Positions 2 to 38,156 of a stretch of 45,650 nucleotides of DNA are shown here, piece by piece. The notes under the pieces were generated by a model. The model was not told the DNA's origin, ran no database searches, and saw only the letters and a program-made list of their open reading frames with translations. The translations under genes and the position numbers were made by a program. This DNA is from a virus. The number at the start of each line of letters is the position of its first letter. The stretch's first letter is position 1. Where the stretch lies: positions 1 through 45,650 of the IMG/VR virus record IMGVR_UViG_3300025674_000078; one strand, 5' to 3'.

Positions 2-916
2 GATAACTACGCTACAGGGGAAAGCGTGGGCAATACTATAAGAGGGTTATCAGACTCGGTAGAAGAGCTGAAGGATGGATTCAAGTATTTCGTACAGAAT
101 ACAAGGTTACCCTCTGGATCTTTAAATAACCTCGGTACGAGCTATAATATAATTGAGGGGAGAAATATCAATACCAACCATAGAATCGTCTTCAGAGACC
201 CCGACGGCGTCCTCGATCAGCCACTATTTGAAAATTCTTCAGCTACCTATTCCCAATCGGGTACGGTGATAACCGTAACTTCTACGGGCCATGGCCGATC
301 TGTCGGAGAGAAAGTAAATCTCATCTTTTCCACCGGAACAGCGACAGATGGCAGATACGAAATAGCTACTGCTTCTACCGACTCGTTCACAGTAACATCG
401 GGGCAAAGTACTACCACCTCCGGCGATGTTATAGTCCGACAAGGAGTTAACTTTTTCGAGCTAGGGTCTCTCATCGGGGCTGGAGAAACCACGTACTTTG
501 GACAGAATATCCCCGGCATATGGCTGTGGTCTGGGGATAAATATAGACGAGTATTTAGTACCGACGACAAACCTTTTATGAGTAGGAACCAGAAGGAGTA
601 TTTGAGCCCAGCGATCTACGACATCAGTGGCAGCCTGGTGGCAGCTAATGATTACCGTTATAGCATAAGCACGGCTTACTACAAGCAAGGAGAACCCACT
701 ACCGCCGCATCTATTAAAGGATTTGACACTACTCTATCTGTTCTTATACAGAACATCACCCCTAGTACCGACCCTAACAATGGGGGGTTTGTCTACCACA
801 GAACTCTGACCACAGAGACAATAAAGACTACGGACAATTATACGGTAAAATCCTGGCCCCTATTCTCCTACCTAGATGGCAGTGCTGTTAAAGACGCTAA
901 GTTCTTAGCTATCTAA
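2..916 (+). CDS. Phage tail/virion structural protein, C-terminal part (5' end cut by window)
   Basis: The reading frame is open from base 2, with a GTG at 26 as the first possible start inside the window, so this is probably the C-terminal part of a longer gene. Residues counted from that GTG, about 70-125, form a threonine/serine-rich beta module (TVITVTSTGHG, then VGEKV, then SFTVTS) of a type common in phage tail fibre and baseplate-associated proteins. The rest is beta-rich without a recognised domain. It converges on the leftward gene ending at 905, and the two stops overlap by 12 bases. A virion role is inferred from this module and from the surrounding structural genes. The exact position in the particle is unknown. 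Confidence 0.7.
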   Translation, partial: DNYATGESVGNTIRGLSDSVEELKDGFKYFVQNTRLPSGSLNNLGTSYNIIEGRNINTNHRIVFRDPDGVLDQPLFENSSATYSQSGTVITVTSTGHGRSVGEKVNLIFSTGTATDGRYEIATASTDSFTVTSGQSTTTSGDVIVRQGVNFFELGSLIGAGETTYFGQNIPGIWLWSGDKYRRVFSTDDKPFMSRNQKEYLSPAIYDISGSLVAANDYRYSISTAYYKQGEPTTAASIKGFDTTLSVLIQNITPSTDPNNGGFVYHRTLTTETIKTTDNYTVKSWPLFSYLDGSAVKDAKFLAI

Positions 917-11497: not shown

Positions 11498-12192
11498 GGG
11501 ACTTCTAAAACTTTACTCAGAATCCTCTGAGTCTCCTCTTTAATATGGTGTTGACTATTAATCCCAGGGTAATTTCTGAATATAGTGGAGTTAGCCCGTT
11601 TATTGACGTATACGTCATTGAGAAATTGATATTCTTTCTCGGGTAAATCGGCCAACTTTACCAGAATGTTGGAGTATTCAGATAGCATTTTGTCGATACT
11701 ATCTTCCCGGGGATTTTCATCTTCGAAGGGCACCTCAGTGTCCTCGTTTATCTCTTGATACGTGACCTGATATGCCCTCCTGGTCTCCCGTATCAACGAC
11801 TCCTTTAGCCCGGTCATTTCGGCCACTTCATGGTCGGGAATTTCCGGATTTGCACCTATAATCTTCCGTATTTTTATATACGTATCAGCATAAGTCCGAG
11901 GGACCTTAATCATTCTCGAGCTGTCTCTGAGATAGTTCAAGAGCTGAAAAGTAAGCGACCTGTTTAGCCAGGTACTAAAGTTGGCTTTCTCCGGATCCCA
12001 CTTGTCGTACAATTTGACCATAGCCTCAAGAGCTACTGATCTCAGTTCTTCAAACGGAAGTCCGCTAAAGCCCGAAACTTTCCTAGCTGCATGAGAGGCT
12101 TTCCACATATTCTCGCGAATATGCATCTCTCTGGTTCTTTCATACTCCGATCGTCTAACCCCCTTGAGGTTTTCTAATTCTACCGGTCTCAT
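11479..12192 (-). CDS. Phage-encoded sigma-70-family RNA polymerase sigma factor
   Basis: 237 residues. Region 2 spans about 30-100: KLYDKWDPEKANFSTWLNRS followed by QLLNYLRDSSRMIKVPR, the classic core-binding and -10 recognition segment with the RD..xIKVPR ending. A region-3-like helix-turn-helix (EIPDHEVAEMTGLKESLI, about 117-134) and a region 4 (about 175-228: LADLPEKEYQFLNDVY then a helical HTH ending QRILSKVLEV) follow. It should bind host core RNA polymerase and redirect it to phage promoters. The natural target candidate is the GTTGAAAGC motif. Its ATG overlaps the thioredoxin-like stop (ATGA), and a good host-type promoter lies before that gene. Confidence 0.88.
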   Translation of the reverse strand: MRPVELENLKGVRRSEYERTREMHIRENMWKASHAARKVSGFSGLPFEELRSVALEAMVKLYDKWDPEKANFSTWLNRSLTFQLLNYLRDSSRMIKVPRTYADTYIKIRKIIGANPEIPDHEVAEMTGLKESLIRETRRAYQVTYQEINEDTEVPFEDENPREDSIDKMLSEYSNILVKLADLPEKEYQFLNDVYVNKRANSTIFRNYPGINSQHHIKEETQRILSKVLEVPCLSDT

Positions 12193-12512
12193 TTAATGTT
12201 CTTTAGTACAAAATCTTTAATCTGAGTAGCAGACATAATGCCTTCACCGTTGAAGGCGATTAGGTTGCATTCTTCGTCGAAGATGGCGAACTCTGGGGTC
12301 CCGTTGCCCGATTCTCCGGGTACCAGAGACTCTAGGAATTCCCAGTTGTCATCAAGGACGTTAAATTCTCCCCAGCCAACCCTGAGCTCAGGGTATTCTT
12401 CTGCTATTTCACCTGCAACTCGGGCGAAAATCGGCGCCATGGCTTCGCAGGCGGGGCAGCCCGGTTGTCGAAACAAAACTACGCGGTAACGGAACTCTTG
12501 AGTGTCAATCAT
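12189..12512 (-). CDS. Thioredoxin-like protein (CPAC)
   Basis: 107 residues from the ATG at 12512. Redox motif CPAC (Cys19, Cys22) after a VVLFRQPG strand, and the cis-proline loop as NGTPEFAIFD, both typical of the thioredoxin fold. An upstream in-frame ATG at 12557 would add 15 residues, but the promoter -10 (12542-12547) lies inside that extension, so 12512 is preferred. There is no clear Shine-Dalgarno. It is cotranscribed and ATGA-coupled with the sigma factor. It may reduce ribonucleotide reductase or another phage protein, or redox-control the neighbouring regulator. The partner is not shown by the sequence. Confidence 0.85.
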   Translation of the reverse strand: MIDTQEFRYRVVLFRQPGCPACEAMAPIFARVAGEIAEEYPELRVGWGEFNVLDDNWEFLESLVPGESGNGTPEFAIFDEECNLIAFNGEGIMSATQIKDFVLKNIK

Positions 12513-12541
12513 AAAGGAAAGTTGTAGACTAATACAGGTGT

Positions 12542-12570
12542 ATTGTAGCACATACATTAGGGATTGTTAA
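12542..12570 (-). promoter_or_regulatory. Host-type promoter for thioredoxin-like and sigma-factor genes
   Basis: Leftward -35 TTAACA (12570-12565), 17-base spacer, -10 TACAAT (12547-12542) with a TGC extension. It differs from the sigma-70 consensus at one base in each hexamer and is the best promoter seen in the window. It implies that the host polymerase can transcribe the phage sigma gene. Confidence 0.7.
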
Positions 12571-22643: not shown

Positions 22644-25600
22644 GTGGATCGTATCGTATTTCAGAACGGAAAGGCTGTTAGCAGTCAGTACCTCAATGAG
22701 GTCCAGAAAGGTGATAAGTTTACCGGCAATAGTCGGACGGACTACTATGCCGACCCTACGGCCGGAGATGAAGCGGGGTGGGAGATTGGCCAGAGAGATG
22801 GCATCAAGGATTGGGAAATCGCCGATCCCCGGGTAAATCAGGAATCCGCCCTGGGCCGATCCGCTCATGACGGCATCGTCTTAGGTTGGGATAGCGTGGC
22901 CGAATCCGTCGTAGTTCCCGGAACGCCTAGCACCCGGCCCGTAGGTGCCGGCGGCATCGGTGTCACCGTTGAAGCTGGTAGTTTTGTCGGCAGAGATGGA
23001 AATCCCGTCTCCTGGCCTAGACAAACTGTCCAGATCCTGGGCGGTGCGGATAGCGTCTCGTACCTCTACGTCCTCGATGACGGATCCGACCCCTTGTCGG
23101 TGTCGATGGGTAACAGTCTGCCTAGTGTAACAAGAGCGCACGTACCCCTTGCAAAACTAGTCCTTAATAGTACCGGAGACAGTCTTGCCACAGATCCTCA
23201 GACAAACGAAGTTGTCGGCACTGGATATATCGATCTTCGGCCCAATACGTTTGTAGGAAATCTTAACACTTACCCTCAAAACCTCACCAACACTACGGTA
23301 CAAAGTGCCGACTATACGGCCGATATCTGGGACCGAGTTATTATCGATACCAGCAGCGGCAGTGTTATCCTTACTCTGCCCGAATCACCCTCTGATTCCG
23401 ATCGCATCGCGGTAGTTGATATTTCCGGTACATTTGACCGGTTCCCTCTGATTATCCGCCAAAACCCCGCATCTCTCGAGCTGCTTAATAGTTCCAGCGA
23501 TGATTGGATCGTTAATATCCGTGACGCCCACTTAGAATTGTTTTACCATTCCGCCACCGGGCAGTGGAAATTCGAAGAAGCCCCTGGAGCCGAGTGCAAT
23601 CCGGTCCTAGGTAGCTTCCTATCTTGCGGTGGTCGAGAATTCATCGGTGATCGCACGGCGGTAGAATGTCCGGACGGAGCGGCGTTGCCCGCTAAATATC
23701 CCGAGCCTAGTGCAGGTGTATACAGCTTCGAACCGTCCCAGAGCGATCCGACTCTGGGTAAATGTTATCGGGTATATGACAACACCGTCGCGCTGTATGC
23801 TAACGGGACCGGCGGCCTGATTAGCATCGCTAACACCCCCCGGTGTGATAGAGAGGGGACGGCGAGCGCGATTTCTACTTCGCGTAATACCATCTTCGTC
23901 GACCCTAGCATCGGTGATGACTCCATAGGTAATGCTGGCTCTGAGGCAGGACGTCCTTTCCGTACCCTAGAACGAGCCCTTATCGAGGCGGTGAGGGAAT
24001 CCCGGCGTAGTGGTCAGGCCAATGACCGTTACGACAGAGTAATGATCGAGCTAGCCCCTGGGGACTACTACATTGATAATGCCCCTGGATCCTTAGCCCC
24101 CCTAGCGGTTACAGATGACACCGGCCTCATACAGAGGACTGACTCTGGCTACGAAGTAGGTAGCGTATCAGTTGGTGATAGAGTAGTCCATATTACCGTT
24201 GACGTCGGAGACTCGGTTAGTAATCAACCCCCCAGGGCGTTGAACTTAGGCCGCGTACTTTACAGCGAGTCGGGCGGGGTAGGTAATATCGCCAGGATTG
24301 AGAAAATCTCCCCCTCCAACTCCAACTGGGTAGTCACTCTAGAATATGTAAGGGGCGGATTCAATATTAACGATAAAATCTACTACGATAATTTGTCCGT
24401 AGTAAACCCACAGACCGGTGGTCTCATCGTCCCCCGGGGTATTTCGGTAGACGGCACCGACTTGAGGAAAGTTCGTCTCCGCCCTATGTATGTTCCCGAA
24501 CTTACTCCGGTCCAAAACGATCCGCAGTCAGAAAGAACTGCAATGCTAAAAGTTACAGGCGGTACGTACGTATCTCTTCTAACCTTCACTGATAACCCGC
24601 AGTATCCTCGTACTCACAATACCGTAACGTCAGTAGCGTTTGCGTCACAAGCAGAGATTAATGGAACTGGCACGGAAACCCCGTATTATGGTAGGATCAA
24701 CACGTTATTTAAAGACCTAGATGGCTGGGGTGCTGACGGCTTAGAAGCACTTCCTGCCGAAACAACAATCGTCGCACCTATCGCCGATAGCAAAACGAAT
24801 AGGGATAGGGACCTAGAGGAGAATCAGACCGGACTTAGAATAGACGGCGGTGACGGAAGAGACAATGCGCCTGTATCTTATCCCGGTGCTACCAGGATCC
24901 GTGACACTGACGGTTCAGTTATTCCCCTGCCCGATATCAACTCGACGAGATCAAGTTCTCCCTACGTCTTTAACTGCTCAGTCCGCTCCATCTTCGGCCT
25001 TAATGGTCTTTGGGCAGAAGGAAGCCGAGTAGCCGGCTTCAAATCGATGGTTACCGCTAACTTCACTCAAGTTAGCCTCCAAACCGACCCCAACTGCTTT
25101 ACTCCGACCACCTATTTCGAAGATCCTCCGACCAACAAGAGCAGTGGCACCGGTAAGCAGTACAAAACGTCGACCAACGACCCGTTTAAGTATCGTCACT
25201 TTGGTATGCGGGGCAGCAATGATGCCACGATCCAAATCGTGTCTGTGTTCGTTATCGGAAACAGTGATCATTTCGTATCGGAAAACGGTGCTGACCTATC
25301 TATTACCAACTCCTGCTCCGACTTCGGTGACATTTCCCTGAGAGGGATTGGCTATAAGGCAAAATCTTTTAGCCAAGATGAGGCGACAACAGCGCCTGGG
25401 TACAGTGGTACTCGGATTACCCAGATCATCCCTCCTCTGCCACTTAGCTATGACAATTTGCCTGATGGCAGACCTCCGACTCTCGAGGATATTGAAATCA
25501 ACACTGGGTTTACCATTGACTATGGTAAAACTCTCACCTATACCGTAGAAAATAAAACTCCCACCAATACGGCTCCCGGAACGATTAGGATTTATATCCA

Positions 25601-27644
25601 AAATTCCAACATAGCTTCGCCCTTTACGCTTAATAACCCCCCTTCCGCATCAGATATCGCCTTTGGCCAGTTCTCATTTACTAATAAAGTAAGCGATACG
25701 TCCTGGGAGTTGGCAGGTGGACCTGGTAATTCTAAGAGGAAGAGAATCTATGTTAGCGGATTCGACGAAGACGGAAACTCCATTCTCTATGCAGGAGACA
25801 TCGCCGACCCCGACCCCTCTGCTACTGGCTTTAGCAACCTCGATGACAGATCCAAGGTGTTTGTTTGGGATCCCGAACCGGAAGAGTATGACGAAGACGG
25901 TAATGTTGTCACCGGATCTCCCTCCTGGTACATTCCTGTTACCACAGGACAGATTGTCGAAGAACAGACTGACGAAGACGGAGATGGCTTCTTACTAAAA
26001 CGCTTCGATTACGCCTTCCGCTATAAACTGCTGCCTTCACCTACCGGTTCGAATGCCGTATTCGCCTCTCTAGACTTCATCTTCGAACGCTCTGCAGCTA
26101 AGATCATCAGAGCTCAGGATAAGAGAAGGAACGATGAGCGGGTGTATCGAGTAGTCTTGGACGGATACCTAAAAGAGCGTGGTCTACGCCGTCCCCAGCC
26201 CTACTATATCCTAGAGAAGCAGGAAGGTGTTTCAGGATACCCTCTTAATAATTCCAACGATCTTCGCCTCGACCCCCTGACAATCACTCAGATCCGGACT
26301 TACGACGAGGTATTTAGGCCTGGAAAAGTAGACGTTCAGTTCCCCGGACAATATGTCACTTATCTGACCCAAGGTTCTCAGGCCCGAGCCGTATTTACTG
26401 GAGACCACTATCCAACCGTTGATAGCGATTACCCCGAATTTACAGAAGACCCGGCTGATAGCAGTACTAAAGTCGCTCTAGAAGCTATGGCAGAAAGGGC
26501 AGGGGTATGGTTCAGCGCACCACTAGAGCCTTCGGCAACACCTATTACGATTAGGACGGCGGCAAGTTCTACGACTCTGGGGTTCCGGACCTCCCTGCGT
26601 CGCCCCTCTGTCATCAGGGCTTCCGGTCACACCTGGGAATGGACGGGCTATCTCAACTACGACACTGCTTTCCCCACGTTCCAAGGCGACCCACTTGAGC
26701 AGGATTTCGCCCTGGGTAAGATTATCGTCGAGGAGAACGGTGGCCGTGTCTACGCCACAGGCATGAACGAGGAAGGCAGCTACTACCTGGGGACCACCGT
26801 ATTCGATCTGAGATCCGGCGAACAATTCGCAATCCCTCTAGCCGCCGAAGGAGAACCGGGTAATGTTACCAATCAGGTTCTGAATAACGTTATTGTCAAA
26901 AATACCCTCCTGATGCAAGACGGATCAAGTCTTGTGATGGGTAGCGATACCACCATCTTCTTTAGCTCTGATACTAAGTTTAAATCTCTAACTACGGGAG
27001 ATATCACGGCTAGTAATAATCCGCCAGAGATATATGCATCCACTTCGAAGGCTGGTATTGTTCAGCTAGCAGGACCGGATGTAATCCGTGGCGCTCTAAG
27101 CAGCTCTAATGCTGCCAATGGCACATCTCAGTACTCCGTAGTCACCGCTCTTGATCTGGCTAACGAACTCAATGTACGGTTTGGAAACAGCGTTTCCGAA
27201 GGTACCGGTGTCACTGTTACTCAGCAGTCGATCGAATTACCTGGCGGCGACCCCGATGACCCTACTGACAACATTACGCAATTCGTTATCAGTATTGGCC
27301 AAGAAGTAAACACCGATAGCGATGTAAACTTCAAGACTGTTACTGCGACGGGAGATATTACAGCGTTCTCTGACGTCAGGGGGAAAGAGAACATCATCGA
27401 TCTCGATGCTTCTCTGGAAAAGATTGAATGCCTACGGGGCGTCAAGTATAATATGAAAGACGACCCGTCCACCGACCGAATCGGTGTAATCGCTCAGGAG
27501 GTGGAGTCTATAGTTCCGGAAGTAGTCAACTACGATGAGGAAAAAGATCAGTACAGTGTCTCTTACATCTCGCTAGTACCCCTACTGATCGAGGCGGTCA
27601 AGGAGTTGTCTGAGAAAGTCAAGAAGCTAGAAGAAAAGCAGTGA
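22644..27644 (+). CDS. Long tail fibre with S74 intramolecular chaperone
   Basis: 1666 residues, GTG start. About 415-480 opens a region of right-handed beta-helix type: VDPSIGDD, PFRTLERALIEA and then IELAPGDYYID, a pattern common in cyanophage fibres. The C-terminal about 95 residues are a peptidase S74 intramolecular chaperone: SDVRGKENI (1576-1584, with the Ser1576/Lys1581 dyad), LRGVKYNM, IGVIAQEVE, and a terminal coiled coil (LIEAVKELSEKVKKLEEKQ). In this family the chaperone trimerises the fibre and then cleaves itself off before the serine. Receptor recognition is the inferred role. Confidence 0.88.
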   Translation: MDRIVFQNGKAVSSQYLNEVQKGDKFTGNSRTDYYADPTAGDEAGWEIGQRDGIKDWEIADPRVNQESALGRSAHDGIVLGWDSVAESVVVPGTPSTRPVGAGGIGVTVEAGSFVGRDGNPVSWPRQTVQILGGADSVSYLYVLDDGSDPLSVSMGNSLPSVTRAHVPLAKLVLNSTGDSLATDPQTNEVVGTGYIDLRPNTFVGNLNTYPQNLTNTTVQSADYTADIWDRVIIDTSSGSVILTLPESPSDSDRIAVVDISGTFDRFPLIIRQNPASLELLNSSSDDWIVNIRDAHLELFYHSATGQWKFEEAPGAECNPVLGSFLSCGGREFIGDRTAVECPDGAALPAKYPEPSAGVYSFEPSQSDPTLGKCYRVYDNTVALYANGTGGLISIANTPRCDREGTASAISTSRNTIFVDPSIGDDSIGNAGSEAGRPFRTLERALIEAVRESRRSGQANDRYDRVMIELAPGDYYIDNAPGSLAPLAVTDDTGLIQRTDSGYEVGSVSVGDRVVHITVDVGDSVSNQPPRALNLGRVLYSESGGVGNIARIEKISPSNSNWVVTLEYVRGGFNINDKIYYDNLSVVNPQTGGLIVPRGISVDGTDLRKVRLRPMYVPELTPVQNDPQSERTAMLKVTGGTYVSLLTFTDNPQYPRTHNTVTSVAFASQAEINGTGTETPYYGRINTLFKDLDGWGADGLEALPAETTIVAPIADSKTNRDRDLEENQTGLRIDGGDGRDNAPVSYPGATRIRDTDGSVIPLPDINSTRSSSPYVFNCSVRSIFGLNGLWAEGSRVAGFKSMVTANFTQVSLQTDPNCFTPTTYFEDPPTNKSSGTGKQYKTSTNDPFKYRHFGMRGSNDATIQIVSVFVIGNSDHFVSENGADLSITNSCSDFGDISLRGIGYKAKSFSQDEATTAPGYSGTRITQIIPPLPLSYDNLPDGRPPTLEDIEINTGFTIDYGKTLTYTVENKTPTNTAPGTIRIYIQNSNIASPFTLNNPPSASDIAFGQFSFTNKVSDTSWELAGGPGNSKRKRIYVSGFDEDGNSILYAGDIADPDPSATGFSNLDDRSKVFVWDPEPEEYDEDGNVVTGSPSWYIPVTTGQIVEEQTDEDGDGFLLKRFDYAFRYKLLPSPTGSNAVFASLDFIFERSAAKIIRAQDKRRNDERVYRVVLDGYLKERGLRRPQPYYILEKQEGVSGYPLNNSNDLRLDPLTITQIRTYDEVFRPGKVDVQFPGQYVTYLTQGSQARAVFTGDHYPTVDSDYPEFTEDPADSSTKVALEAMAERAGVWFSAPLEPSATPITIRTAASSTTLGFRTSLRRPSVIRASGHTWEWTGYLNYDTAFPTFQGDPLEQDFALGKIIVEENGGRVYATGMNEEGSYYLGTTVFDLRSGEQFAIPLAAEGEPGNVTNQVLNNVIVKNTLLMQDGSSLVMGSDTTIFFSSDTKFKSLTTGDITASNNPPEIYASTSKAGIVQLAGPDVIRGALSSSNAANGTSQYSVVTALDLANELNVRFGNSVSEGTGVTVTQQSIELPGGDPDDPTDNITQFVISIGQEVNTDSDVNFKTVTATGDITAFSDVRGKENIIDLDASLEKIECLRGVKYNMKDDPSTDRIGVIAQEVESIVPEVVNYDEEKDQYSVSYISLVPLLIEAVKELSEKVKKLEEKQ

Positions 27645-30863: not shown

Positions 30864-31038
30864 TCACGAACATATTGCCACGTATCGAGGCGTAAAATAC
30901 GATACGGACGAACAAAAAGATAACTATGTGTCGTGGTGGAATCAGATCCACTGCGATGCGAGACGCTGGCTAGTCTATCGTGGTAACTCGTATAGAGCTT
31001 TTGACCAGTGCGGAGTCAAGGATTCCGTGCTACACTAA
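30856..31038 (+). CDS. DUF4278-like small protein
   Basis: 60 residues from the ATG at 30856, which overlaps the previous stop. An in-frame upstream start would run deep into the preceding gene and is rejected. It contains two YRG motifs (TYRGVKYD near residue 9 and VYRGNSYRAF near 46), the pattern of DUF4278, a short domain found mainly in cyanobacteria and their phages. Its function is unknown. The promoter for nrdB lies within its last codons. Confidence 0.68.
   Translation: MSNHEHIATYRGVKYDTDEQKDNYVSWWNQIHCDARRWLVYRGNSYRAFDQCGVKDSVLH
31028..31036 (+). promoter_or_regulatory. Extended -10 (TGCTACACT) before nrdB
   Basis: TGCTACACT, about 22 bases before the nrdB ATG at 31059, overlaps the end of the upstream gene. 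It is similar to the other TGCTANANT elements. The -35 is weak. Confidence 0.45.
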
Positions 31039-31058
31039 CAAACATATCGCACAGAGTT

Positions 31059-32063
31059 ATGTCCATCCTCTCCCATGTCCCGATGCTGTACAAGGCGAAG
31101 TCGGGCTATGAGTATCCAGAATTCTTTGAATACTACCAGAGTGCCGTGGCGTCTGTGTGGAGGCCGGAAGAGGTTGCGATGGCTTCCGATGTCAATGACT
31201 GGCACCATAATCTGTCGCAGAGCGAGAGAGATTTGATCGCTGGGGTGTTACGAGGATTCACTGTAGCCGAGATGGGCATCTCCGAGTATTGGGGAGATAC
31301 GGTGTGTAAGCTGTTCAAGAAGCCGGAGATCTTGAGTATGGCCCGGGCGTTTAGCTTCTTCGAACAGATCCATGCTCAGGCGTATAACCATCTCTCCGAC
31401 ACCCTGGGCATCAATGAGTTCGAAGCGTTCTTGTCCGACTCTACTGCGCAGAAGAAAGTTGAGCGTTTTTTCACTTCATGTAGCTCTGAAAAGGTATCTC
31501 TCGCAGTGTTCAGTGGAGCGGGTGAAGGAGTAAGCCTTTTCGCTTCTTTCGCCATTCTCTTGGCCTTTAACAAAACCGGTCGGATGAAAGGTTTGGCCCA
31601 GATTATATCATGGAGTTCGATTGACGAAGGCCTTCATAGTAATGGGGGTAGCGGTTTGTTTAGAAGACTGGTAAAAGAGACCGGCATTACCGACAAAGAG
31701 ATAGCCGAGATCAAAGCTGGCTTCGATACAGTAGTCGAAAACGAGTATAGCTTCCTAGATAACATCTTCAGCACCATAGACAATACCGCCATCCCCATCG
31801 CTCTATCTGACCTCAAATCATATATAAAATCTCGGGCTAACAACCGACTCGAGAATCTTGGTCTTCCTCAGCTTGGCTATTCGATGACCGCTGAGGATAT
31901 CTCCTCCTCCCGCTCCATTTCGGACTGGTTCGACCCCATGGTCAAAGGTCAAACGAACACCGACTTCTTCGCCATGAGTAAAGACGGAGGCGGCTATGTC
32001 GCCAAACCGTCCCAAGATTTCCTATCCGTCGACCTTAGCGCATTGGATCTCGAACTCGTGTAG
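31059..32063 (+). CDS. nrdB: Ribonucleotide reductase small subunit (class I)
   Basis: 334 residues from the ATG at 31059. An upstream in-frame start at 31008 is rejected because the -10 lies inside that extension. Di-iron and radical features are present: EQIHAQAY (Glu102, His105 and Tyr109, matching E115/H118/Y122 of E. coli), a glutamate in the GAGEGVSLF region, and IDEGLH near 195. It pairs with NrdA encoded just downstream and makes deoxynucleotides for phage replication. The C-terminal tail (SVDLSALDLELV) is of the type that docks on NrdA. The radical tyrosine indicates a normal class Ia-like cofactor. Confidence 0.95.
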   Translation: MSILSHVPMLYKAKSGYEYPEFFEYYQSAVASVWRPEEVAMASDVNDWHHNLSQSERDLIAGVLRGFTVAEMGISEYWGDTVCKLFKKPEILSMARAFSFFEQIHAQAYNHLSDTLGINEFEAFLSDSTAQKKVERFFTSCSSEKVSLAVFSGAGEGVSLFASFAILLAFNKTGRMKGLAQIISWSSIDEGLHSNGGSGLFRRLVKETGITDKEIAEIKAGFDTVVENEYSFLDNIFSTIDNTAIPIALSDLKSYIKSRANNRLENLGLPQLGYSMTAEDISSSRSISDWFDPMVKGQTNTDFFAMSKDGGGYVAKPSQDFLSVDLSALDLELV

Positions 32064-32360: not shown

Positions 32361-32843
32361 ATGGATATCAATATCAACATACCTGAGGGTTGGCAGGTGG
32401 GTGAAAACGAGGACACCGAATCCTTCGAAGAAATCCCTGAACTCGATCCGGCTGACGCTAAGCGCGAGCAGTGGAAACAGTGGAAAGATTCGCCCTATCA
32501 GATTAGTGATATGGGCAGGGTACGCCGTGTCCAGCAGAATGGCGGAATCAACTATAGAAAACCACGATCCGATGACCGGGGCAAGTACAGGGTCAACCTG
32601 ACCTGGGAACGTAATGGTATTCCTTATCGCGAAGAACCCTTCCTGCACCAGATGGTGATGTCGATTTTCGGCCCAGAGAAACCTCAGGGCGATCACATCG
32701 TCGTATGTCACAAAAAGCCCACAGGACCCGATGGTAAGCCCGACAACCGCCTCGCTAACCTATACTGGTGTGACAGAAGCAGGAATGTTGAAGACTCATG
32801 GGACGACGGACTGATGGAGACGGGGGCGAGGTGGAAGAGTTGA
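32361..32843 (+). CDS. HNH homing endonuclease with NUMOD4-like domain
   Basis: 160 residues. About 40-60 reads WKDSPYQISDMGRVRRV, typical of the NUMOD4 DNA-binding domain. About 90-135 has LHQMVMSIFG, then VVCHKKPTGPDGKPDNRLANLYWC, the HNH nuclease core (His, Asn, Asn). It sits between nrdB and nrdA, a usual place for free-standing homing endonucleases that target RNR genes. Its stop TGA lies within the following GTTGAAAGC motif. The acidic N-terminal 35 residues are unusual. Confidence 0.85.
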   Translation: MDININIPEGWQVGENEDTESFEEIPELDPADAKREQWKQWKDSPYQISDMGRVRRVQQNGGINYRKPRSDDRGKYRVNLTWERNGIPYREEPFLHQMVMSIFGPEKPQGDHIVVCHKKPTGPDGKPDNRLANLYWCDRSRNVEDSWDDGLMETGARWKS

Positions 32844-32908: not shown

Positions 32909-35900
32909 TTGCGTCTGAAATTATTTACCTTCAAATTTTTTCCAGTGACTTGCGATTACTTCGACATCGATAAGCTACCCATCTGCCCAGACTGGCTGAG
33001 CGAAGAAGCCCAGCAGACCTTGTCAAAGGGCTACCTGTTGCCCGGCGAGACCCCTCGTGATATGTGGAAGCGCTGTGCGCTGACAGCGGAAAAGCACCTC
33101 AAGAAGCCTGGCATCGGCGAAGACATCATGGAGATGTTTTGGCTCGGATACATGGGCGGAGCGACACCGGTCTTGAGCAACTTCGGAACCAACCGTGGAC
33201 TTCCAGTTTCCTGCTACAGTCACACAATCCGTGATGACACCATTAACATCTTCAGCCACCTTAAAGAAGTCGCAGCATTGAGTAAATATGGCGGCGGTGT
33301 AGGTAGTTATTTTGGAGAATTAAGGCCTGGTGGATCTCCGATCAGTAAGGGTGGAAAGTCGGGCTCGATTGTGGATTGGATGCGCCTTTACGATCGTACG
33401 GCCGCTACCGTCTCCCAAGGCAACACACGACGAGGCTCCTTCGCCCTCTATTTGCCCATCGACCACCCTGACCTAATGGATGCCTTGCGCAGCAAGGACC
33501 ATAGCCAGGGGGATCCCAGAAATTTTATCGACTCCAATCTAGCCGTCACAATCAAAAACAGTTGGATCGAGGAGATGTTGGCTGGGGATAAAGAAAAACA
33601 GAAGATTTTCAGCGAAGTTCTTAAGTCTCGGATGGTATGCGGTTCTCCATATCTCATGTTTCCAGACAATGCGAATGATCAAGCACCAGATTGTTTTAAA
33701 AAACGCAATTTAAAAATTGTTACTTCGAACCTTTGTTTCACCGGAGACACTATGGTAGCCGTTGCAGACGGAAGAAACTCTGTACGTATTGACGAGTTAT
33801 CCGGCACCGAGTTCACTGTGTATTCTGCCCGGAAATCTAAAACCCGTTGCGCTTGGTTTACAGAGATTAAGCCGGCTAAAGCTTTTAAGACTGGCACCAG
33901 AGAGATTGTGGAGGTAGAATTAGAGGATGGAAGCACCTTCCGTTGCACCCCTGATCACCTCTTGGCTTGCAAGGACACCCGGTGGATCGAAGCACAAGAC
34001 TCAGTAGGAGTTACTTTGGAGTCTTACACCCAGTTCAAGAATCAATACGGTCACCTCATGGTAAACACTCACTCCGACGGCCATAGACGTCAAGCTCGGA
34101 TGATTTGGGAGTATCATAACAACCGTAGCAGTGAAGGTTTCCATGTAGACCATGTTGAGCCTGGTGATAATGATTCCATCGAAAATCTCCAACTTCTCAC
34201 CAAAGAAGATCATATGGCTAAAACTGCTCTTGAGAGGATGGGAGAAAATAATCCAATTCACCGGGTTAACAAAGAATACCACAAAGAATACGTATCTGTC
34301 TTTTCAACTGGCAAAAGAAATGCTAAGTTTTGTGGTATAGATAACTATCAACTAATCGCACTCGGTAAACTTATCTACGAAAGAGTAGGATCTTTTACCA
34401 AAAAAGACTATCTAAGTCTCATTGAGATAGGTTACAATGTCCCTCAAAACTTCTCCAACTATCGGTTTGGGGGCAAGTTTAGCGACTATGTTTCCTACGT
34501 CAAAGGGGAAAAAGAATATCAGGGTGAGTATGAGGTTGAAAAGCCTAGCCCGGAGAACCCCAGACTATCTGAAATTCTTAAGAATAGAGAGAAGGTTAAG
34601 GGTATCCGTCAGAATGGGCTAAAAGTTGTAAGCGTAAGGCCTGCTGGTGTGGAAGATGTTTACGATCTGACAGTTGAGGGTAATCACAACTTCTACATCA
34701 TCACAAAAGACTCAGATGGTGTAAAATCTGGCGTTCTGGTTCACAACTGTAGCGAAATTTTCCTTCCCACTGACGAAAACCACTCCTTTACCTGTGTACT
34801 TTCCTCCATCAATCTCTCTAAGTACGACGAGTGGAAAGACTGGAGAGGTAAAAACACTGGTAAAACCCTACCTGAGCTTGGTATTTACTTCTTAGATGCC
34901 ATCGTGGAGGAGTTTATCCATAAGGCTAGCAGGTTGCCCGCAATGGGTCGGACGGTAAGGTTTACGAAGAAATCCCGTTCATTGGGTTTAGGCACCATGG
35001 GTCTCCACGCTCTCTATCAATCCCGAGGCCTCCCCTTCGCATCCAAAGCCGCACGCGAACTCAACATCGAGGTCCACAAATACATTGATGAGATGTCGTT
35101 GAAGGCGTCGCAGGACATGGCGAAGGAATACGGTGAACCGGAATGGTGTGAGGGCCACGGTGTGCGCCACGCCACCCGACTAGCCATCGCACCGACCAAG
35201 ACGAACTCCGTGATCTGCGGAGCAGTCTCTGAGGGAATCGAACCTCTAATCGCTAATCTATTCGTCGCTGGAAATGCCAAGGGAACCTTTGTCCGCAAAA
35301 ACCCTTATCTTGAGAGTCATCTCGAGCAGGTTGGAAAGAACACCCAAGAGGTATGGGACAGCATCTTGGAGGAGAGGGGGAGCGTTCAGCACCTCGACTT
35401 TTTGAGTCCAAGGGAGAAGGAGATCTTTAAGACGGCGAGAGAAATCGATCAGTTTGAAATTGTAAAACAAGCTGCGGACAGGCAGCGGTATATCTGTCAG
35501 GGCCAATCTGTCAACCTCTTCGTCGACCCCGAGGCTGACGCAGCATACCTGATGCGCCTACACCTGTCGGCTTGGAAAATGGGCCTCAAGTCTCTCTACT
35601 ACCTGAAATCGACCTCATTGCAGGTTAAGAACAGGGGGAGTAAAGTTGTCCCTCAGAAACAAGTTGCCAAAGTGGTAACCAAACCGGACTGCCCCTGGTG
35701 CACAAAGGTTAAGGAATTATTAAGATCTCGGGGGTACGAAATCACAGAGGTTGATAGGTCAGAGGTTCCCGATTCCGACTGGTCCTGGGACACCGTTCCC
35801 CAGGTCTGGATCAATGGCAGCCATGTGGAAGGCGGCTATGAAGGAGTCTCTAAGATGCTGGAACAGGACGAGGGAGAAAAATACTCTGAGTGCCTGGCTT

Positions 35901-35911
35901 GCCAGGGCTAA
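32909..35911 (+). CDS. nrdA: Ribonucleotide reductase large subunit with intein and glutaredoxin domain
   Basis: 1000-residue precursor, about 662 after intein removal, with no N-terminal ATP cone visible. Redox Cys102 (LPVSCYSH), radical Cys614 directly after the intein (extein SNL-CSE), partner cysteine in SFTCVLSSINLS, and the tyrosine pair in LYYLK are all present. Residues about 918-985 are a glutaredoxin domain (CPWC 928-931, VPQVWINGSHVEGGY). The protein ends ECLACQG, with redox-tail cysteines 995 and 998. Start is uncertain: TTG 32909 follows a GGTGGA site, and GTG 32945 is an alternative. It works with NrdB to reduce ribonucleotides. Confidence 0.93.
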   Translation: MRLKLFTFKFFPVTCDYFDIDKLPICPDWLSEEAQQTLSKGYLLPGETPRDMWKRCALTAEKHLKKPGIGEDIMEMFWLGYMGGATPVLSNFGTNRGLPVSCYSHTIRDDTINIFSHLKEVAALSKYGGGVGSYFGELRPGGSPISKGGKSGSIVDWMRLYDRTAATVSQGNTRRGSFALYLPIDHPDLMDALRSKDHSQGDPRNFIDSNLAVTIKNSWIEEMLAGDKEKQKIFSEVLKSRMVCGSPYLMFPDNANDQAPDCFKKRNLKIVTSNLCFTGDTMVAVADGRNSVRIDELSGTEFTVYSARKSKTRCAWFTEIKPAKAFKTGTREIVEVELEDGSTFRCTPDHLLACKDTRWIEAQDSVGVTLESYTQFKNQYGHLMVNTHSDGHRRQARMIWEYHNNRSSEGFHVDHVEPGDNDSIENLQLLTKEDHMAKTALERMGENNPIHRVNKEYHKEYVSVFSTGKRNAKFCGIDNYQLIALGKLIYERVGSFTKKDYLSLIEIGYNVPQNFSNYRFGGKFSDYVSYVKGEKEYQGEYEVEKPSPENPRLSEILKNREKVKGIRQNGLKVVSVRPAGVEDVYDLTVEGNHNFYIITKDSDGVKSGVLVHNCSEIFLPTDENHSFTCVLSSINLSKYDEWKDWRGKNTGKTLPELGIYFLDAIVEEFIHKASRLPAMGRTVRFTKKSRSLGLGTMGLHALYQSRGLPFASKAARELNIEVHKYIDEMSLKASQDMAKEYGEPEWCEGHGVRHATRLAIAPTKTNSVICGAVSEGIEPLIANLFVAGNAKGTFVRKNPYLESHLEQVGKNTQEVWDSILEERGSVQHLDFLSPREKEIFKTAREIDQFEIVKQAADRQRYICQGQSVNLFVDPEADAAYLMRLHLSAWKMGLKSLYYLKSTSLQVKNRGSKVVPQKQVAKVVTKPDCPWCTKVKELLRSRGYEITEVDRSEVPDSDWSWDTVPQVWINGSHVEGGYEGVSKMLEQDEGEKYSECLACQG
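33734..34747 (+). mobile_element. Intein with HNH endonuclease inside NrdA
   Basis: 338 residues (276-613 of NrdA). N-terminal splice block CFTGDTMVAVADG, block B with TPDH (TFRCTPDHLL), C-terminal blocks VYDLTVEGNHNFYII and GVLVHN followed by Cys+1. Between them lies an HNH core (HVDHVEPGDNDSIENLQLLT) and a likely DNA-recognition region. All residues needed for splicing are present, so it should excise itself. The insertion is exactly before the radical cysteine, so unspliced enzyme would be inactive. Confidence 0.92.
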
Positions 35912-35947: not shown

Positions 35948-36565
35948 GTGAACGTCACCTTCTACACACTCCCGGGAGACGAAAAATTCGCTCCTCGGCC
36001 CTCTCACCCTGGCGAAGACGCCGGAGCAGATATTCGTGCCTATGCAAAAGACACCTATAACCGAAGCGATGCCGTAGACTTCTTCAGAGACTTTGAGTCC
36101 TGCGCACTGAAGTACGGTGCCAGACTCTACATCGACGGTGAGGTATTCACTTCGGAATCGGAAAACGACTTCCTCGACCTCGTCGACAAATCAAACGGCG
36201 CTGCTTTCCTCCTCCCTGGAGACACGATTAAGGTCAGTGCAGGGTTTAAAATCCATATGGATAGGGGAGACATGAGTAATTTACTGCCTGTCTATAAAAT
36301 CGTATCTCGGAGCGGTTTAGCCTGCAACCACAGCGTGATTGTTACCAATTCTCCCGGCATCATTGATTCGGGGTATCAAGATTGGGTAAAAGTGTCTCTT
36401 ACCAATAACGGGGACAATCATCACGTGTTTACTCACGGGTCCCGTATCGCCCAAGGTCTATGCGAACTCGTATACGATCAGTCTACATTCCCCGTTGTGA
36501 CAGATCCGTCTATCTTCTCCACCACATCCCGTGGTCAAGGTGGATTCGGATCGACTAAAATCTGA
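35948..36565 (+). CDS. dut: dUTPase (dUTP diphosphatase)
   Basis: 205 residues. All five trimeric dUTPase motifs are seen: I GEDAGADIRA (22-31), II SRSGLA (120-125), III GIIDSGYQDW (137-146), IV GSRIAQ (164-169) and V RGQGGFGST (195-203). It hydrolyses dUTP to dUMP, keeping uracil out of DNA and supplying thymidylate synthesis. It is longer than the usual about 150 residues because of an insertion of about 50 residues (about 32-85) between motifs I and II. It has its own host-like promoter and is likely early. Confidence 0.93.
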   Translation: MNVTFYTLPGDEKFAPRPSHPGEDAGADIRAYAKDTYNRSDAVDFFRDFESCALKYGARLYIDGEVFTSESENDFLDLVDKSNGAAFLLPGDTIKVSAGFKIHMDRGDMSNLLPVYKIVSRSGLACNHSVIVTNSPGIIDSGYQDWVKVSLTNNGDNHHVFTHGSRIAQGLCELVYDQSTFPVVTDPSIFSTTSRGQGGFGSTKI

Positions 36566-36571
36566 CTAATC

Positions 36572-36727
36572 ATGGCAAAAGTATTAACGTGCAAATTATC
36601 GGATAAAGTATTTCGCCCCTGCCTCTACTGTGACGGTCGGGGCTTTTTTATACAAGATTTGTTCCACATGGTGGTGGAATGTAAATTCTGCGGAGGTACG
36701 GGGGAACGTGTCAATAAGCCCGGCTGA
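36572..36727 (+). CDS. Small DnaJ-type zinc-finger protein
   Basis: 51 residues, starting seven bases after the dUTPase stop. Two CxxCxGxG repeats (CLYCDGRG and CKFCGGTG) separated by a short hydrophobic loop match the cysteine-rich zinc-binding repeats of DnaJ. There is no J domain. Four cysteines could bind one zinc ion. Its 3' end overlaps the start of the HNH gene by 20 bases in another frame. Free-standing mini zinc fingers of this type may bind unfolded proteins or nucleic acid. The role here is unknown. Confidence 0.7.
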
Positions 36728-37178
36728 CAAGATTTTAGTTCTTAATTTCGATTTTACCCCCCTTAATATAGTTCTCGGCAGAAGAGCAATTGTACTGCTG
36801 CTCAAAGAGAAAGCACAGAGAATTTCGGGCAGAGTAATCCGCCTCATGAAGTATATTTACACCCCGATTAGTAGGGCGGCTAAGGAGAAACCTACAAAAG
36901 CTGCGATATATCGTAGGGATAATAATACCTGCCAGTATTGTGGTAGCACGAGGTCGTTGACGATCGACCACGTTATTCCTAGATGTAAAGGGGGCGACTC
37001 ATCTTGGACAAATGTTACCCTGGCATGTTCGACCTGTAATACAAGAAAAGGGTCTAAGACTCCGGAACAAGTAGGTCTTAAACTCCGTAGAAAACCAAGA
37101 CCACCTTTACCAAGGGTAGTGGAGATCGTGCAGAGGTCAACCGACCCTGAATGGTCACAGTACGCGTATTCGTGCTAG
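36708..37178 (+). CDS. HNH endonuclease, CxxC-type
   Basis: 156 residues from the GTG at 36708, chosen because a GGGGGAAC site precedes it and because the family begins near [13 protein letters not shown]. Starting at 36630 would overlap the zinc-finger gene heavily. The core is CQYC (75-78), [10 protein letters not shown] (87-96), W..N, then CSTCN (107-111) and a basic KPRPP tail, a very common bacterial and phage HNH type that is often encoded in cyanobacteria. Its stop codon TAG lies inside the extended -10 at 37173. It may be a homing or DNA-processing nuclease. Confidence 0.85.
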
Positions 37179-37204
37179 AATGGTTGATAGAATAAGTGAG
37201 GATT
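37164..37204 (+). repeat. Direct repeat copy 1 flanking the GIY-YIG gene
   Basis: 41-base segment starting GCGTATTCGTGCTA, about 80 percent alike by eye to the segment at 38182-38222. It includes an extended -10 (TGCTAGAAT) and a degenerate late motif GTTGATAGA (37183-37191). It overlaps the last codons of the HNH gene. Confidence 0.75.
37173..37181 (+). promoter_or_regulatory. Extended -10 (TGCTAGAAT) before the GIY-YIG gene
   Basis: TGCTAGAAT, in which TAG is the HNH stop codon. It lies about 40 bases before the ATG at 37221. The -35 is weak. Confidence 0.5.
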
Positions 37205-37220
37205 GTCTGTTTGTTTTCCC

Positions 37221-38156
37221 ATGAAAGAACAAAAAGAATACCACTACGTGTATTACTCTTATGAGGAGTGGGGCAGGGGGTACATTGGGAGTAGAACTTG
37301 TAAGTGTTTACCTGAAGAAGATATAAAGTATTTCGGTTCTTTTACCGATAAAAATTTTAAACCTGCCTTTAAAATAATATTGAAAGATGATTATAAAACT
37401 AGAAAAGAAGCCTATGAAGATGAAATCTTCTTACACCAGTACTATAGTATAGCCGAAAATCCACATTTTGCTAACAGGGCTTGTCAAACTTCGACATCAT
37501 TTAGCAGGAAAAATGCCCCCTACAAAGGCCTTACTGAGGAAACTAAAAAGAAAATCTCTGAGTCTAAGAAAGGAAAGAATAATCCTATGTATGGTAGAAG
37601 AGGCAAAGACTCTCCTAGTTACGGCAAGAAGGGTAAAGACTCTCCTAACTACGGAAAGAAGAGAACTAAAGAGACTAGGAATAAAATAAGTGCTGCTCTT
37701 ACTGGGAGAGTTATTACTGAAGAACACAGAAAAAATATTCGTATCTCTAAAAATAGTGAAAGAAGCAGAGAAATATCAAGAAAAAATGGATTAAAGAGGA
37801 TAGGAAGCTCTCTAAGCGAAGAAACTAAGTTAAAAATTAGGTTGTCTTGCTTGGAAATCAACAAGGGAGAATCGAACGGTAATTTTGGAAAAACTTGGTT
37901 TACTGACGGTAGTAGTAATATAATGAGTTTTGAATGCCCTGAAGGTTTTTGGAAAGGTTACACTAGCAAAACCAGAAAAACCTGGAAACTCACTTTTGAA
38001 GATGAGTCTACTATAGTCACTGATAATATAAGAGAGTGGTGTAAAAATAATGGATACAAAGTAGACAACCTTGTAAATGTAAAAAGAGGTAGAATTAAAA
38101 GGCACAGGAATATAGTAAAAGTTGAAGTAATAGAGGATAAGTCAAAGCCGACCTAG
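37221..38156 (+). CDS. GIY-YIG-like homing endonuclease with NUMOD3 repeats
   Basis: 311 residues from the ATG at 37221; the frame is open slightly earlier but only from a TTG without support. The N-terminus (YHYVYYSYEEWGRGYIGSRTC, then YFGS and a glutamate-containing helix EDEIFLHQYYS) fits a GIY-YIG variant. Three NUMOD3 units follow (KGKNNPMYGRRG, KDSPSYGKKG, KDSPNYGKK), then basic helices. It is clearly more AT-rich than its neighbours and is flanked by a direct repeat, both signs of recent insertion. It probably cuts an allele lacking the insertion. Confidence 0.85.
   Translation: MKEQKEYHYVYYSYEEWGRGYIGSRTCKCLPEEDIKYFGSFTDKNFKPAFKIILKDDYKTRKEAYEDEIFLHQYYSIAENPHFANRACQTSTSFSRKNAPYKGLTEETKKKISESKKGKNNPMYGRRGKDSPSYGKKGKDSPNYGKKRTKETRNKISAALTGRVITEEHRKNIRISKNSERSREISRKNGLKRIGSSLSEETKLKIRLSCLEINKGESNGNFGKTWFTDGSSNIMSFECPEGFWKGYTSKTRKTWKLTFEDESTIVTDNIREWCKNNGYKVDNLVNVKRGRIKRHRNIVKVEVIEDKSKPT

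Follow-up and report, generated by a model that had tools for sequence, protein, structure and literature searches.

The DNA analyzed here, referred to as the window, is a viral contig of 45.6 kb (45,650 nt) that carries the genes for both subunits of a ribonucleotide reductase (RNR), nrdB and nrdA (Table 1). A 1666-amino-acid protein encoded at positions 22644-27644 is 54% identical to the tail fibre of phage S-TIM5, and the nearest relatives of the window NrdA among named phages are the S-TIM5-type phages and S-CBWM1; therefore, we regard the window as an S-TIM5-like cyanomyovirus. The nrdB gene probably starts with the ATG at 31059. The true start of nrdA, either the TTG at 32909 or the GTG at 32945, is uncertain, and translation of the listed reading frame yields a precursor of 1000 residues. 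By eye, a free-standing HNH-like reading frame (32361-32843) separates the two genes, and an annotated HNH endonuclease occupies the same place between nrdB and nrdA in S-TIM5 and S-TIM54. Also by eye, nrdA is directly followed by a dUTPase-like reading frame (35948-36565), an HNH-like one (36630-37178) and a GIY-YIG-like one with repeated G-K-x-S-P-x-Y-G motifs (37203-38156).

Table 1. Features of the nrd locus in the window (residues are those of the NrdA precursor)
Feature	Residues	Position	Strand	Evidence or remark
nrdB, class I RNR beta subunit, upstream of nrdA		31008-32063	+	PF00268, E 1.7e-53; best PDB sequence matches are RNR beta subunits
nrdA reading frame, RNR alpha with intein, glutaredoxin and redox tail		32909-35911	+	PF02867, E 2.5e-95
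N-extein of NrdA	1-275	32909-33733	+	translation
First redox cysteine, in GLPVSC	97-102	within N-extein		equivalent of E. coli C225
Intein (338 aa) with HNH-like endonuclease region	276-613	33734-34747	+	PF14890, E 1.9e-10; PF13392; TIGR01445; alignment of the intein-less homologues S-TIM5 and L147
C-extein core of NrdA	614-900, by the end of LYYLK	34748-35608	+	predicted catalytic Cys614/Glu616; Cys of SFTC; LYYLK radical-transfer tyrosines
LYYLK motif	896-900			translation
Linker, core to glutaredoxin		35609-35662	+	low-confidence and flexible in model; pLDDT <50 at the equivalent L147 residues 547-563
Glutaredoxin domain	~919-987	35663-35869	+	PF00462, Foldseek, invariant residues
CPWC	928-931	35690-35701	+	glutaredoxin active site
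TVPQ	962-965	35792-35803	+	glutaredoxin motif
GG	975-976	35831-35836	+	glutaredoxin motif
Post-glutaredoxin tether and redox tail ECLACQG (Cys995, Cys998)	ECLACQG 994-1000, the C-terminus	35870-35908	+	CxxC in 126/126 complete fused homologues; unfused homologues share the tail

The features of a class I RNR alpha subunit, i.e., the barrel, the cysteine triad, the YY radical-transfer pair and the C-terminal cysteine pair, are all present in NrdA (PF02867), and the residues concerned were located and are kept across homologues. An AlphaFold model of the core of its nearest relative, L147 (90% core identity), best matched the class Id alpha structures of Actinobacillus ureae and Flavobacterium johnsoniae (6dqx and 6dqw, 39-40% identity), which resemble it in the core but whose solved chains, 499-520 residues long in the best matches, lack a glutaredoxin (Grx). 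Together with the assignment of the S-TIM5 RNR to class Id (PMC6370689), these nearest structures suggest that the window encodes a class I, Id-like enzyme.

The intein directly precedes Cys614, which serves as its +1 residue (VHN/C junction); by homology, Cys614 would be the thiyl-radical cysteine equivalent to C439 of E. coli. Splicing motifs, the cysteine at +1 and the terminal HN are in place (PF14890, TIGR01445), and homologues without an intein align across the element. Self-splicing is expected to remove the intein, leaving a mature enzyme predicted to consist of core, Grx and tail. An intein at the same site, before the C439 equivalent, is found in S-CBWM1 and L010, a different one precedes the C225-equivalent cysteine in L008 and L009, and neither L147 nor S-TIM5 and the other S-TIM phages have any. 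Because relatives without an intein keep the Grx and others carry an intein elsewhere, we consider intein and Grx to be independent features. The initial annotation had spoken of a three-part RNR made of core, intein and built-in electron donor, a description weakened by the expected self-splicing and by this distribution.

Identity of the inserted domain

The initial annotation had also placed a glutaredoxin between the NrdA core and its redox tail, at 35660-35911. This was borne out by domain searches, structure comparison and homologous proteins, and the coordinates are right, with the end at 35911 taking in the tail and the stop codon. The Pfam glutaredoxin profile PF00462 matched residues 922-973 above its gathering cut-off, with an E value of 4.7e-11 for the whole protein and 6.4e-13 for the C-terminal fragment, and it was found in 54 of the 54 homologous C-termini scanned. 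NCBIfam glutaredoxin models agreed with the call, but under their own equivalog cut-offs. The profiles matched by the domain were those of glutaredoxin families, the NrdH family being absent among them, and the top phmmer matches among PDB sequences were likewise glutaredoxins. A Foldseek search with the predicted domain returned nearly all glutaredoxins (E values from 2.7e-5), and the order of secondary-structure elements in the AlphaFold model, E-H-E-E-E-H, is that of the thioredoxin-like Grx fold. The match to glutaredoxin is far beyond chance.

Across 54 diverse members, C28, P29, C31, P64, Q65, G76 and the tail CxxC are invariant and T62, V63 and G75 nearly so, and the Grx cysteines and the tail CxxC are kept together in all 126 complete fused proteins. 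Upstream of the first Grx cysteine the window has a lysine (TKPDCPWC), where some relatives have an arginine. The dN/dS ratio of the domain was 0.014 for S-TIM5/S-TIM54 and 0.069 for L154/L155, many other pairs being saturated at synonymous sites, and the Grx is under purifying selection. In the window's group the alpha-2 region, which links the second strand to TVP, is reduced in length compared with a standard Grx, as might befit a decayed or chance glutaredoxin-like stretch devoid of function. However, such a stretch is extremely improbable and was rejected in view of the Pfam match (E 6e-13), the glutaredoxin fold, the invariant catalytic residues in 54 homologues and dN/dS values well below 1. 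By fold and motifs, we assign the domain as a putative dithiol glutaredoxin, predicted to depend on glutathione (GSH).

Distribution and origin of the insertion

The initial annotation knew of no such arrangement, yet the same order of core, Grx and CxxC tail is present in S-TIM5 (isolate paper 2012), S-TIM54, S-TIM61, S-TIM66, S-CBWM1 and phage C48C1, as well as in many viral contigs. Where the full-length proteins align, NrdA of the four S-TIM phages (Aurunvirus) and of S-CBWM1 is 52-64% identical to that of the window; the S-TIM and S-CBWM1 records consulted do not mention a Grx by name. Fused loci make up 127 of the 255 loci placed, which were gathered from viral-contig scans, named phages and bacterial loci and include some contigs counted twice, and the architecture appears to be common in aquatic viral contigs. 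A species-genome scan limited to short motifs found NrdA cores and free Grx but no fusion of NrdA, Grx and tail in bacteria or archaea. One candidate for a cellular source, L098, was dismissed as a separate protein with a Grx end: the product of L098:4626-5432, from a Francisellaceae MAG, is unrelated to RNR and carries a rhodanese-type-looking domain (by eye) before that end. Besides the better-known Grx-NrdB fusions, grx::nrdA fusions have been noted in two viruses (Rozman Grinberg et al. 2018, PMC6187632), which may belong to this very group. There, as here, the Grx is carried by NrdA; the sections of that paper drawn upon give neither its position nor a mechanism and describe no assay of these proteins.

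Relatives without the fusion close with the same CxxC tail, which follows the YY motif at a distance of 14-24 residues in group 1 and 24-40 residues in group 2, and the fused proteins have about 70 residues of Grx placed within this YY-to-tail stretch. As judged by sequence comparison, the Grx was inserted into a linker that is still present in the unfused proteins. An origin by read-through into a grx gene downstream of nrdA was considered, but by itself it fits poorly, since the Grx is followed by the tail. A grx gene does lie 7-13 bp after nrdA in Atu_ph07 and Phosso, two related phages without the fusion, but the tail comes before that grx, and hence an internal insertion would be needed.

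Trees of the core, from which the insert was left out, were built from 150 rows and, with bootstrapping, from 54 rows. The fused proteins formed the window/S-TIM5 clade, the C48C1 clade and the row L030 on a longer branch, so that three changes were needed, and a single clade of all fusions was rejected by the AU test (p-AU of 1.6e-6, and 3.2e-4 without L030). A tree of the Grx domain itself had too few columns and did not place the donors. The distance from YYxx to CPxC is 19-27 residues in one of the two main fused groups and 32-33 residues in the other. As one fused clade is rejected and the depth of insertion differs between the groups, at least two independent insertions are favored. A single ancestral gain followed by several losses is less likely, given that the insertion sits at different depths of the linker in the two groups.

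Proposed role of the glutaredoxin and redoxin supply

Class I RNRs pass electrons from a redoxin to the cysteines of the tail, which in turn reduce the disulfide of the active site. We think it quite probable that the Grx serves as a tethered donor, dependent on GSH, which recharges the oxidized tail in its own or the partner alpha subunit, with a chemistry that we infer; the initial annotation had likewise proposed a built-in reductant, and this is the best explanation. In this reading, a compact dithiol Grx was inserted into the flexible stretch that joins the catalytic core to the CxxC tail of an Id-like alpha subunit. After each turnover, the tail would reduce the active-site disulfide and swing out oxidized, to be re-reduced by the CPWC of the Grx in the same polypeptide or in the other alpha of the dimer, and the Grx would be recharged by host glutathione. 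The tether would raise the local donor concentration and would free the phage from the host's supply of glutaredoxin and thioredoxin. The intein would have to splice out first and would play no part in the redox cycle. Regarding the initial annotation, its interpretation was largely right on function and wrong on novelty; added here are the recurrence of the insertion in one linker, its wide occurrence among viral contigs and its pattern relative to neighboring redoxin genes.

In the AlphaFold model of L147, the Grx (residues 565-631, pLDDT of about 77-90) is flanked by disordered stretches on both sides, the linker (547-563) and the tail (634-647), and its position relative to the active site is left unfixed. 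A precedent supports the tethered-donor reading: the Grx fused to NrdB of Facklamia ignava is an efficient RNR reductant that uses a dithiol mechanism (PMC6187632). Among the fusions covered in the sections of that paper drawn upon, the Grx::ATP-cone::NrdB of F. ignava, the Grx::NrdB of Francisella and phage Grx-NrdB resemble the window protein in having a built-in Grx, also with CPWC, but carry it on the beta subunit (N-terminally in F. ignava and Francisella), whereas in the window it sits beside the alpha tail.

The Grx might act only in trans, reducing the tail of its partner alpha subunit, or store electrons as an extra relay. Inter-subunit electron transfer has been reported for a class II enzyme (PMC5704485), and the tether from the Grx to the tail cysteine is short, about 11-20 residues past the last helix (19-30 residues from the GG motif in group 1). 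A flexible tether of that length could, however, fold back in cis as well, and we see the trans-only mode as possible but rather doubtful, and as a special case of the tethered donor rather than a competing explanation. The C-terminal cysteine-rich domain of class II NrdJ (PMC5704485) is, like the window Grx, an extra C-terminal domain of alpha for electron delivery, but it is a zinc-binding cysteine array and not a thioredoxin fold.

In line with a built-in donor, Pfam finds no glutaredoxin other than the fused one in four complete phage genomes (S-TIM5, S-TIM54, S-CBWM1 and C48C1), and the fused domain is likewise the only Grx in nine of nine large fused contigs; against it, a further Grx lies 2-4 kb away at two fused loci. 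Atu_ph07 and Phosso, which lack the fusion, have two or three free Grx genes. Replacement of a free Grx by the fused one was unsupported, as 13 large unfused group-1 contigs have no Grx. Unfused sister phages are thus mostly without a Grx, which speaks against the tethered-donor reading in that a built-in donor is not strictly needed, and several of them have a separate thioredoxin (Trx), so that external reduction works for this RNR family. The Grx might then be an active redoxin mainly for other host or phage targets, or a docking or oligomerization module, with host Trx or Grx reducing the tail; the cysteine-rich domain of the class II enzyme also affects oligomerization (PMC5704485). We regard this as improbable, since the same linker was hit at least twice, directly before the substrate tail, and the redox motif was always kept.

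No free thioredoxin-like gene was found near nrdA at any of the 127 fused loci, whereas group 1 has one at 14 of its 49 unfused loci and group 2 at about 10 unfused phage loci; these counts are given as a pattern and not as a statistical test because the loci are related and their flanks are of unequal length. In some unfused phage loci (L204-L222, L228-L284), the small thioredoxin-like gene closely follows nrdA in group 1 and closely precedes it in group 2. This suggests that such phages often pair their RNR with a redoxin, through either fusion or a neighboring gene. S-TIM5 and S-TIM54 encode one thioredoxin-like protein elsewhere in the genome, and hence the fused Grx need not be the sole redoxin.

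Returning to the tethered donor, we lean towards a broader reading in which at least two independent insertions into phage class I RNRs have produced a self-recharging subunit, whose swinging Grx-tail arm would reduce the tail intramolecularly and independently of host redoxins, while related phages would use a free Trx or Grx gene beside nrdA. This would be a compact, testable case of a phage freeing a rate-limiting enzyme from host cofactors, and the fused and unfused close relatives would offer a natural experiment on how the RNR tail shuttles between the active site and an external reductant. As a minor observation, the window contains a weak thioredoxin-like reading frame on the minus strand (12189-12557; PF00085, E value of 7e-4, below the cut-off); the matches in the L147 and L009 contigs are similarly weak, and those in S-TIM5 and S-TIM54 are stronger.
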